Origin: Amphiura filiformis
Lineage: Eukaryota > Echinodermata > Ophiuroidea > Amphilepidida > Amphiuridae
Reading direction: 5' to 3'
Length of the DNA: 64,000 bases
NCBI RefSeq assembly: GCF_039555335.1
Contig: NC_092640.1
Location: 45,050,099 to 45,114,098, forward strand
The notes under the pieces were generated by a model. It saw nothing but the letters and a program-made list of their open reading frames with translations. It did not search any database and had not been told where the DNA came from. Each line of letters opens with the position of its first letter. Position 1 is the stretch's first letter. Below are positions 33,501-39,500 of the stretch, one piece after another. The translations under genes were made by a program, and so were the position numbers.

Positions 33501-36500
33501 GGCGGTAAATTGGTTACAAAGGTCAAAGTGGTTACAAAGGTCAAAGGTCTCGAATTATTTGGTGTTTTTACAAATCCATTAATTTTGTCTTTTAAACAAA
33601 GAATATACGCACACCATTTTATCCTCTGCATAACAGAAAACAATAATAAAATAAAATCCAAGCATATTGTGGTTTTATTTCTGAGCAAGGGCATAATTTT
33701 AGCAAAACAATTGCGGAGTAAATCTAGTAAGAGTGAAATTAGAAGCTTCTCACAAACTCATGCCTATATTGTGGGCCGCCTCCGTAGAGGGCGCCCCCAA
33801 AAAAACACCTTTCCCGACCGACCGACCGACCGACCCAACTTCTGAAAGTGATCTATGGACAAGCAAACAATTTATTTTTTAGCCCAGTTGATATAATACG
33901 CACTGACAATCATCGCGCTGGATCAGTAATTAATGACTTTTGCCTAAATTTTTTAATGTTTACAATGTTCATCGTGTTACTGAATTTACTGTCATGTTAT
34001 CTTTATTATGTTTTTTTTTTTCTTATGGTATAGGAATAGACGACAGTGGAATGACGAATGAATATGTGTTTACTGTCCCAACACTTGGCCCGACAATTAT
34101 TTATAATAGAGACGTAGACGGTGGGATTATTTATTTTTCCCCACACGTATTTATCACAACACCTTCCAGAGATCCTGTTAATGTAACGCTCTGTATTCCT
34201 TCGCTCAATAATGCGAGTTATCATACCATCGACCGTGACCATCACGTCGATATCACGTTGCCGTTTGAATTTCGTCTTAATCTTGGCGATGGAAAGCAAA
34301 ATGTAACCGGTATAATAAGATCATCGGGAATGGTGGCTGTTCATGTTATAGATACTGGATTTATCGAAAGTGATATATTTACTGTTTACTCATCATCGCG
34401 TTTAGGAAATGTGTATTACGTGGCAACATACACGCCACAGACTTCATTCTTCTGTGTTTCCGCACTTTATCCGGACACAGTCGTTTCAGTCAAGAAAACA
34501 CTCCAAGAAAACAATATTTTTCATCTCAAGCAGTACGAGAGTTACAGGTTTGATGGAAGTAATGGCGAAGATCTGTCTGGAACACGAATAGAAAGTAACA
34601 AGCCAGTTGCTGTGATAGCCGGGGGCGAAACCGCAATAGGAGAAAATGCCTGGGTTGGAAACAGCGACGGAGCACTCGAGCAACTCCCACCTGTAAGCAG
34701 CTGGGGACATACCTATGTTTTAGCACCGTTTCTCTTATCGGATCTGGGCTATTTTTTCAGAGTTTATGCAGGAACTATGCTCACAACTCTGTCCATCTCT
34801 GATAATGATACGGTGACTATTCTTCCAGAAGATTTTTACGAAGGAACAAGTAATGAAGTTCTCACACTTCTCTCAGACCAACCTGTCATGGTATCGCAGT
34901 ACATTACTGGAGCAGGATCCCAACATTTTGAATCAATGATCATTATTCCACCAGCCACATCATACACCAGTAATGTAACATTTTCTGTATTTATGCATGA
35001 TGGAACAATCTCAGATCTCTTGGAATATTTTATCAATGTTGTAATGGAGTGCATATACATAGATGGACTTTTGTTGGACAATCAGGAAACAGTGTGGGAT
35101 GATCAACTTTCTTCAGATTTTGACGATATGTGTTGCATCAGGAAAGGCGTCAATACAGGAGAACATTATGTAGAACATGCGAATCCGAATGCTCAATTTT
35201 TTGTCTATGTTTATGGTATTTGCAGAGGTCGATGTGCTTCATCTTATGTCTACCCAGCATCTGACGTATATTTTAGAAGTAAGTTTGATTTCTAACAGCT
35301 GCATCGTTTATGCTTAAAAATAATTAAAAAATTCGGGGGATTTCAGATCTTGGTTGAGTTTACTTGCGCATTGTAAGGAGTGCTGATCTGAAAAATTCTA
35401 AACTGGACTAAAATGATCCCTTCGGTCCCGAAAAAAACACATCCTGTTTTTCAGAGACCCCACCGACCAGGTTTTGCGTTTTGGGAGAATTTTATTTTTA
35501 CTTTTTGCTAAAATCAAATAATGAAGGCGGAGGTGGCCTATATGCTACACCCTAGCAGGGCGTAAGACAATGCGAGACACAAATAATGATATATGCGATA
35601 TGATATATGTTTTCCCCCTTTGTTAACACAGAGGAAACGAATGGACTTACTACGCTGCCAACAAGCACAGGTAAGGAGCATTTTTGTTGTTGATAAAAAT
35701 GGACTAAACAATCTAAAATATCATGGCGGTCAGCATTCCATGGGGGTAGGGGAAGATGTCCAAAGGGAATCCTACTTCCCCTACCCAATTGGCTACGCCA
35801 CTGTGGTATGGTAATGTACCAATATGTTTACTGTATAACAACAACTGTATTATCTTACCCGCGTTTTGTTTTCCCCCTTTGTTAACACAGAAGAAACGAC
35901 TGGACTTACTACGCTGCCACCAAGCACAGGTAAGGGACATTGCAGTAGCAAAGCGTGGAGGCTAGTTTCAAGTAGTAGTAGTAGTAGTAGTAGTAGTAGT
36001 AGTAGTAGTAGTAGTAGTAGTAGTAGTAGTTGTTGTTGTTGTTGTTGATAAAAATGGGCAAAACAATCTCAAAAATATCACGGCGGCCAGCATTCCTTAA
36101 TTGGAACATGCTTACTATTATATTGTAATGTTTATCTGCTTTGTCTCACCGCGTTTTGTTTCCCCCTTTGTACTGTTAACACAGAAGAAACGAATGAACT
36201 AACTACGCTGCCAACAAGCACAGGTAAGGGCAAGTTTTTGTTGTTGATAAAAATGGACAAAACAATCTAAAATATCGGTGGGTCAGCATCCCATGGGGGT
36301 GGGGCAAGATGTCCAAAGGGAATCCTACGTCCTCTACCCAACTGTACCAATATGTTTATCATGTTTATTGTGTCGACTGTATAACAACATTAATATCAAC
36401 ATCCCAATACCACTAATTCACCACACTAATTGTTTTATTAGATTTTATTCATGCTGACGACAGCCTTTCATACTTACGAACTGAATTGGCAGATGCCTAT

Positions 36501-39500
36501 TATTATATTGTGTTCATACACTCCTATATCAAAGCAGCCAATCAGAAAAGCGGTTAGAAAAATACGAAACATGCATTGATTGTGTATATTGTGCACTCCG
36601 CGTACTACGCGCAGTGTTTCGCGCGCGTTCGCGTCGCGTTGGATTGATTCATTTTTCGGGCGGGTTGATGCATTTATATTTGTTACTATTTTCTGATGTT
36701 GATGCGTCTAACGCACTCCCCCCTTCGGGGCTCGTGCATTAGACGCATCAACATCAGCGCGCGTGCATTATTTTGTCTAATTTCTCTCCCAACAAGTAAT
36801 ACGCGTTCATTAACCTATAAATGTTACCTGCATTGTCTCACCATGTTTTGTTTTCCCCCTTTGTTAACACAGAAGAAACGAATGGACTTACACTTACTAC
36901 GCTGCCAACAAACAAAGGTAAGGGGCATTGCTGTAGCATAGCCAGGAATTTTCTGGAGGGAAGAGCGGGGAGGCTAGTTTCAAGTGTTGTTGTTGTTGTT
37001 GTTGTTCGGGAAGATGTATACAGGGCATCTAACTGCCCCCACCCCATTGGCTTCGCCACTGTGGTAAAATGATGTACTATGATAAGGTCATGATTGATGT
37101 ACTGCTAACTTGTGCTTACTGTAAATAAATATAATACCAACATCCCAATACCACTAATTCACCACCCTAATTGTTTTATTCATGCTGACCTCATTTCATA
37201 CTTACGAACTTAATTGGCTCATGCCTATTATTAAATTGTAATGTTACCTGCATTGTCTCACCACGTTTTGTTTTCCCCCTTTGTTAACACAGAAGAAACG
37301 AATGGACTTACTACGCTTTCCAACATTCCAATACCACTAATAGCTACTAATTCACCACCCTAATTGTTTTATTCATGTTGACCGCATTTCATACTTACGA
37401 ACTTAATTGGCTCATGCCTATTATTAAATTGTAATGTTACCTGCATTGTCTCACCACGTTTTGTTTTCCCCCTTTGTTAACACATAAGAAACGAATGGAC
37501 TTACTACGCTGCTAACAGGCACAGGTAAGGGGCATTGCAGTGGCATACCCCTGATTTTGTAGATTTGTTGATAAAAATGGGCAAAACAATCTAAAATATC
37601 ACGGCGGTCAGCATTCCACTGACGGGGGGGCAAGAAGAGGCACACAGTTGCTATCGAAACGCACACAGTAAGTGCATTTTATTGGACCAGAAATAAGATA
37701 TTCTACCGATCCTGAATTTATTCTTATTATCGATTTTACATCAACAAACATTCTTTAGAACTTAAAATGTCTAGAAATAGATTGAATAATGAACATATGT
37801 ATTGCATCGAATATTCGACGTCCAATACAAATTATGAACCGGGCACCGTGGGTACGCTGTTCAATTATTCACCAAATGTTCTTCATTCAACAAACACATA
37901 ATCATGTGTCATAAAAAAATCATAAAACCGAACAAATATCAAGAAAAGTAGATCGGACAAACGGCAAACTTACGACAAATTATTTTAATGGAACATTAGT
38001 TCCTTGTGTTTTGTTCTTTAAATATGAGAACAATATTTCCTTGTGTTTTGTTCCATAAAAATAAACCCTAATCATTAATAAAAAAAAGTAGGTCGATAAG
38101 ACAAACGGCAAACCTCAAATTGATTCAATGAAACAATATTTCCCTGTGTTTTGTTCTTTAAAAATGAACACTAATAATAAGAAATGAAGGTCGTTAAGAC
38201 AAACCTCAAATTGATTCAATGAAACAATATTTCCTTGTGTTTTGTTCTTTAAAATGAACACTAATAATAAGAAATGTAGGTCGATAGGACAAACAACAAA
38301 CTCTACATTGGCAATTAATAGGGTCACTTTTTTTGACAATAATATTAAAAACTCGTTGTTTTATTCCGGATGTTTGATTCCAGAGAGATGCATTGTTTAT
38401 AGCTTTGAAAAGAAAAGAAAACAAAAAACCGCGAGTCAAATAAATCACCAGGAAACAAGAAACACGATACAGTCTCTTTAAAAAGACAAGAAGGGATATT
38501 TACCGTAAAAATACGTTAATGAGCATATGACTGTACCTATTAACGATCGCTTTTGACAACATGCAAACATGAAGAGCGCCATGCACAAAAGGTAACTTAC
38601 CGTTTCAGCAAATCATCGACACACATAACAGTTATACCGTAAAACCTCGTCTACAAGCATATAGAGTGCTTCTGGCAAAAGTTTAATTGATCCAGGCGCC
38701 ATCCATCGACAAAATTATAATGTTTATGGAGTTTGAGCAAATAAATTACTGATACAAACATATACAACAAGTGTAATTGTAACACCAATCTATCGTACTG
38801 ACATATTTACGGATATTTCGTATTAATCTAGCTTTCATCAATAGTATATATGCTTGTAGACGAGGTTTTACGGTATATGAACAAGTAAACCTGCAAATGC
38901 GTGTGTTGCAAGATATTTTGGTTTGGACACATTAGCTCAGTTGGTAAAGCGCCGGACTTTGGTACAATTTAAGAAGAGCGGAGAGAGCGTGAGTTCGAGA
39001 CTTGTCATAAACTTCCCCATTGCTTTAACTACGATAACAAAAAGCTAATAACACACAGATTGGAATATTCCATGCCTGTGCTCTCTCGGGTGCTCTCTAA
39101 GCGTACTTGACGCCGGTACAGCGTTCAGACCTTGCTACAACGCTCATCTCATGCGCGAAGTTTCTTTTGTGTACGCTACTTGCGCTATTTTTGAGTTCGC
39201 AAACGCAACCTGACTTAACGTCGACCCCATAGGCAACATGCCATGTTTCCGCGGTATGAAAAAAGAATATTAAGCAGTGTGAACTCAAGGGTCAAATAGG
39301 TGCATGGTGGGAATATATAGCCTTATATGCTATATTGTGGTTTATTGTAGTTTCCATCCCTCTCTCTCTCACACGATGTGAGAGACTGACGCATCTCATA
39401 CTCTCACCTCTCTACCGCCGTACCGGCTTCCACACTCTCCCCTCCCCCCCCCATCTCCAACCCCTCCCCTCTCTCTCCTTCCCTCCCTCTGTCTCTCCTT

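Follow-up and report, generated by a model that had tools for sequence, protein, structure and literature searches.

What does a row of short, repeated exon-like sequences do inside a single intron of a gene for a probable cell-surface protein, and by which route, if any, does the length of that protein change? The question is raised by a stretch of 64,000 nt from the ophiuroid Amphiura filiformis (contig NC_092640.1, positions 45,050,099 to 45,114,098), which in its full length is called the window here and whose positions serve as coordinates throughout. An earlier, sequence-only reading had seen in it a tandem array of mini-exons that encode a stalk. Our analysis finds the array to be real, probably composed of exons, and of a known kind. 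The explanation that we prefer, with rather modest confidence, is that of a stalk-lengthening array of duplicated mini-exons, in which the stalk would grow or shrink chiefly as copies are gained or lost.

Six related copies (M1 to M6) are present on the plus strand between 35632 and 37524, all within one intron, and none is found elsewhere in the 64 kb. A search by nhmmer with a model built from five copies and their flanks (M5 being excluded from the model) returned six hits with E values from 1.3e-29 to 4.9e-17, five of which match by construction since these copies had been used to build the model; a model of the exon alone recovered the same six copies plus one hit at chance level (E 4.5). 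The copies are as follows, with the kinds of evidence in brackets:

35632-35670, plus strand: M1, 39 nt, phase 1-1 (nhmmer, splice scores, frame)
35891-35929, plus strand: M2, 39 nt, phase 1-1 (nhmmer, splice scores, frame)
36185-36223, plus strand: M3, 39 nt, phase 1-1, with a small insertion in its acceptor, which ranks 19th of 197 (nhmmer, splice scores, frame)
36873-36917, plus strand: M4, 45 nt, phase 1-1, with a 6-nt tandem insertion (nhmmer, splice scores, frame)
37293-37317, plus strand: M5, half a mini-exon with intact acceptor and no donor (nhmmer, splice scores)
37489-37524, plus strand: M6, 36 nt, modelled from the next AG, with an acceptor ranking 90th of 197 and a donor among the best (nhmmer, splice scores, frame)

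The number of six copies is thus correct, but the uniform length of 39 nt claimed for them holds for M1 to M3 only. Likewise, an acceptor identical in all copies had been described, which is exact in four of the six (M1, M2, M4 and M5), while M3 carries the insertion and M6 has lost its AG: the ancestral ACACAG is ACACAT here, and as the following AG is found only 3 nt further on, M6 becomes an exon of 36 nt. The supposedly common donor, AG/GTAAGG, occurs in five copies; in M5 the acceptor is followed by 25 exonic nucleotides and then by duplicated intron. Altogether, the original description fits M1 and M2 fully, M3 except for its acceptor, and M4 and M6 with changes, but not M5.

Splice sites were scored with human matrices between 35260 and 39700, a region that holds 251 GT dinucleotides and 197 acceptor candidates. 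The donors of the five complete mini-exons occupy ranks 1 to 5 among all GTs, with that of M6 tied for the first rank. Among the acceptors, those of M1, M2, M4 and M5 share ranks 5 to 8, and the first place goes to that of an exon of 72 nt downstream of the array. Across the plus strand of the window, the threshold for pairing is reached by six donors, five of which belong to mini-exons, and strong acceptor-donor pairs 30-60 nt apart are found three times on this strand (M1, M2 and M4; the acceptors of M3 and M6 fall under the threshold) and not at all on the minus strand. In 40 windows simulated by a first-order model, the mean was 0.05 acceptor-donor pairs, and no pair was both symmetric and open. 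Since all copies go back to a common origin, this splice-site evidence has to be counted as one piece and not as five. Every subset of the complete copies stays in frame, and none of the other GTs among the 251 scores as well as their donors; on these grounds the five complete mini-exons are very probably exons, and in our overall verdict probably so.

The reading frame can be followed because the array lies in a gene that could be assembled from the plus strand of the window, with a signal peptide, an exon for an IgGFc-binding domain, the mini-exons, the 72-nt exon, an optional EGF-like exon, a transmembrane segment and a tail:

27522-27576, plus strand: coding part of a probable signal-peptide exon (ATG start, phase 1 end, open frame, donor GTAGG)
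34034-35278, plus strand: exon of the IgGFc-binding domain, 1245 nt, phase 1-1 (Pfam PF17517, splice sites, phase)
39554-39625, plus strand: membrane-proximal exon of 72 nt, phase 1-1 (splice sites, with the top-ranked acceptor)
41507-41620, plus strand: candidate for an optional EGF-like exon, 114 nt, phase 1-1 (partial match to Pfam EGF)
42529-42625, plus strand: transmembrane exon, phase 1 to 2 (hydropathy)
43301-43331, plus strand: tail exon with stop codon (open frame)

The signal peptide is a hydrophobic N-terminus assessed by eye. The IgGFc exon matches nearly the whole PF17517 profile (positions 4-297 of 297; E 5.3e-38; 131.4 bits against a curated Pfam cut-off of 25.6), which places it in this family; the family name by itself is no proof that IgG Fc is bound. 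A Pfam search of the 72-nt exon gave no match. All 13 hydropathy windows above 1.6 fall within the transmembrane exon. Phase 1 is kept at every join as far as this exon, and the gene model is coherent; its probable product is a single-pass IgGFc-binding membrane protein of the cell surface, which with the five complete mini-exons would comprise 565 residues without and 603 residues with the EGF-like exon. The downstream "EGF/transmembrane part" of the sequence-only reading is supported for the transmembrane helix and in part for the EGF: EGF domains have six conserved cysteines, and the 38 residues of the candidate contain four. As, moreover, only its C-terminal part matches Pfam EGF (PF00008, profile positions 9-32, E 4.2e-8), this exon is probably degenerate.

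The phase 1-1 ends of the mini-exons, correctly recognized before, fit the IgGFc exon upstream as well as the 72-nt exon downstream. Whichever of the five complete copies are included, the frame stays open to the stop codon of the tail (32 of 32 subsets), with products of 499-565 residues, and the two changes in length (plus 6 in M4, minus 3 in M6) both preserve the frame, for which the naive chance is 1/9. The claim that any copy can be included or skipped in frame is therefore valid for the complete copies but not for M5, which together with the next donor yields an exon of 232 nt with a stop codon. The mini-exons form what characterizes a tandem array of spacer exons, namely short in-frame exons repeated along with the introns around them; five of the copies are complete and one is a half copy. 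A Thr-rich stalk, as had been predicted, is what they encode: 25 of the 66 residues are Thr and 33 of 66 are Thr, Ser or Pro, arranged in repeated units without cysteine, in the segment between the IgGFc-binding domain and the transmembrane helix. This is the composition of a PTS (Pro/Thr/Ser-rich) domain with repeats, although a short one compared with mucins.

It is tempting to go further and to assume, as the stronger version of the initial claim did, that cells choose the number of mini-exons by regulated splicing, which would give a range of stalk lengths within one individual. The complete copies are all frame-neutral, they are short (36-45 nt), and short exons are often skipped; the weaker acceptors of M3 and M6 would fit such a choice as well. 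However, no feature of the sequence points to regulation, and the symmetry of the exons follows from a single symmetric founder, so that it does not by itself argue that a system for varying length has been selected; two of the six copies (M5 and M6), besides, are damaged. We regard regulated splicing as distinctly unlikely. Docking/selector pairing beyond chance is the criterion for a mutually exclusive exon cluster of the Dscam type. Such pairing was sought for the first intron with the sequence ahead of each copy and was rejected, with duplex energies at p 0.07-0.91 over the six copies (300 shuffles) and 12-nt complementary matches of ordinary strength.

How did the array arise? Judged from its repeat structure, it is a product of tandem duplication. 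Homologous blocks recur among array introns 1-6, with deletions that differ from intron to intron, and the earlier statement that the introns are themselves repeated is borne out. This pattern indicates joint duplication of exon and intron, followed by erosion. The intron before M1 shares with the others only the final 23-24 nt in front of the acceptor (E up to 1e-3). The last step can still be recognized, at the end of the array:

37132-37510, plus strand: 193-bp tandem duplication that produced M5, with the breakpoint inside the exon (repeat and alignment)

It has a period of 193 with 98% matches, and 177 of 191 aligned positions are identical, including one gap of 10 bases. M5 is an acceptor without a donor because this duplication broke within the exon. 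Near the junction CCAACA is present both in the consensus exon and in the intron before M5 (M6 now reads CTAACA), which suggests a microhomology event.

The duplication has brought the acceptor of M5 and the donor of M6 into a position where they could be joined to an exon (37293-37524) of 232 nt with an in-frame TAA at 37361. A poison or terminator exon might thus exist, leading either to decay of the message or to an anchorless protein, for which the prediction with M1-M4 is 510 residues without a membrane anchor. The two sites involved are good ones, tied at ranks 5-8 of 197 and at rank 1 of 251, respectively, and 232 nt is a commoner exon size than 36 nt. On the other hand, the combination is no more than a by-product of the duplication accident, and there is no sign of selection for it; we consider a role as a terminator very unlikely. 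A still more elaborate scheme would combine these possibilities in a two-way splice switch, in which stalk length, and with it the reach of the surface receptor, depends on which of M1-M4 and M6 are chosen, use of M5-M6 gives a secreted instead of a membrane-bound form, and allelic copy number acts as a second dial; to this we attach hardly any credence.

Two further structures were noticed in the introns concerned. A strong hairpin occupies 36693-36757 between M3 and M4 (the folded stretch 36660-36780 has -53.3 kcal/mol, z -7.5, with 0 of 200 shuffles as good) and is perhaps a fold-back element. The intron that follows the array holds a perfect inverted repeat of 31 nt (38633-38663 and 38847-38877), the arms of which are 183 nt apart.

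Several observations weigh against a stalk built from functional exons. The acceptors of M3 and M6 are weak and the donor of M5 is absent. Coding constraint was looked for in divergence and in substitution type, and no sign of it was seen. Compared among the five complete copies, the exons show 36 mismatches in 390 sites (0.092, the 6-nt insertion of M4 excluded) and the homologous intron blocks 136 in 1733 (0.078), a figure that leans to similarity since it covers hits with E up to 1e-3 only, counts overlapping copy pairs and contains some simple-repeat hits; the exons are no more alike than the introns. Seven of nine exon substitutions relative to the consensus are nonsynonymous, where about 70% are expected, with the low power that nine changes provide. 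Finally, skipping of the entire array keeps the frame, which means that the gene does not need it. A naive comparison at fixed flanks gives pooled mismatches of 0.092 in the exons, 0.273 in the 70 bases upstream and 0.48 in the 45 bases downstream, the high values of the flanks being due to the different deletions carried by each intron; exon conservation above the intron level was therefore rejected as a sign of selection in view of the 0.078 between homologous intron blocks.

These observations may be taken to mean that the array is an unused relic, in which decaying mini-exons are skipped and the transcript for the working protein runs straight from the IgGFc exon to the 72-nt exon. The missing sign of coding constraint, the two damaged copies, the in-frame direct join and the neighbouring EGF-like exon, which looks degenerate too, are all in accordance with this possibility. 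In contrast, a random intronic repeat is unlikely to combine donors of the highest ranks with pyrimidine tracts next to its acceptors and with a phase fitting the exons on either side, and we find a relic improbable on balance.

In the stalk-lengthening array that we prefer, a single 39-nt phase 1-1 exon of a membrane IgGFc-binding protein would have been copied in tandem along with portions of the adjoining introns. Every intact copy would add to the stalk a Thr-rich unit of 12-15 residues, probably O-glycosylated, as part of a spacer that separates the IgGFc-binding domain from the membrane. M1-M4 would most likely be spliced into the mRNA as ordinary small exons, M6 would be weak, and M5 would be dead as a mini-exon. 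Copies would be gained, broken or lost over generations by tandem duplication or unequal exchange, perhaps differing between alleles as in the hinge of IgG3, and exon skipping may add isoforms.

Further features were noticed in other parts of the same gene. The transmembrane exon is duplicated, 42493-42653 being identical to 45545-45705 over 161 bp, and in its surroundings a 310-base stretch is 96% identical (42191-42494 versus 44082-44391); the second transmembrane copy runs into a stop codon right at the donor and might thus provide the gene with an alternative last exon. Just 5' of the EGF-like exon, at 41460-41510, a tRNA-like B-box was recognized by eye, which may belong to a SINE (short interspersed nuclear element) that replaced the 5' part of this exon; ARAGORN reported no tRNA in the window. 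About 50 bp past the signal-peptide exon, the first intron holds an uninterrupted trinucleotide tract of TAC and then TAT (27627-27809). Farther away, open frames on the minus strand at 53411-60918 match NIDO (E 7e-16) and EGF (E 4e-12), with two weak Ig-like matches under the Pfam cut-off, and are perhaps parts of one gene. The window further contains a 20-bp tandem repeat in 73 copies (17237-18670) and a 42-bp tandem repeat in 10.7 copies (61085-61523), which is open in four frames, two per strand, of 125-187 amino acids.

By analogy with published systems, the array appears to be a known kind of stalk building in another gene. The hinge of human IgG3 (IGHG3) is encoded by tandemly duplicated short exons, whose number ranges from 2 to 5 depending on the allele (PMC8674132; PMC4202688), and like the Amphiura array these encode the spacer of an immune-type protein; the hinge is rich in Cys and Pro and its allelic variation has been measured, whereas the array is Thr-rich, free of cysteine, part of an unrelated gene and represented by a single sequence. 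In SmPoMuc of Schistosoma mansoni, with glycosylated repeats of mucin type, a 27-bp exon is likewise repeated together with its intron in varying number (PMC2576457), but the genomic repeats measure about 1 kb, are more than 94% identical and reach a maximum of 20 per gene and of 100 in transcripts, compared with six copies, two of them damaged, and introns of 168-649 bp inside the array. Chicken Muc13 is a transmembrane protein with one PTS repeat per exon, for which control of length by splicing was proposed in 2006 (PMC1552070), the same hypothesis as was raised for the present locus; it has at least 12 repeats of 20 residues and a SEA domain instead of five complete units of 12-15 residues behind an IgGFc-binding domain. 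Schistosome micro-exon genes share very short exons (3-81 bp; PMC10526429), but are described as composed of them, in contrast to local copies of one exon beside an exon of 1245 nt. The array itself is described nowhere among the matches listed from the open-licence literature on repeated exons or stalk splicing with IgGFc domains and on repeat-per-exon arrays, as far as their titles and the openings of their abstracts go. A scan of viral contigs with the IgGFc exon produced four matching patterns and no relative, and a sequence search of the PDB two matches at chance level (E 0.76 and 0.98).

The locus displays growth and breakage of an array side by side, as a duplication breakpoint inside an exon left an acceptor without its donor. 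If the mini-exons are used, the length of a spacer would have evolved here independently through the duplication of mini-exons, in a protein that probably serves recognition at the surface. Such a case would be comparable to the hinge of IgG3 and would make possible a simple test of whether the reach of a receptor varies between individuals or tissues.

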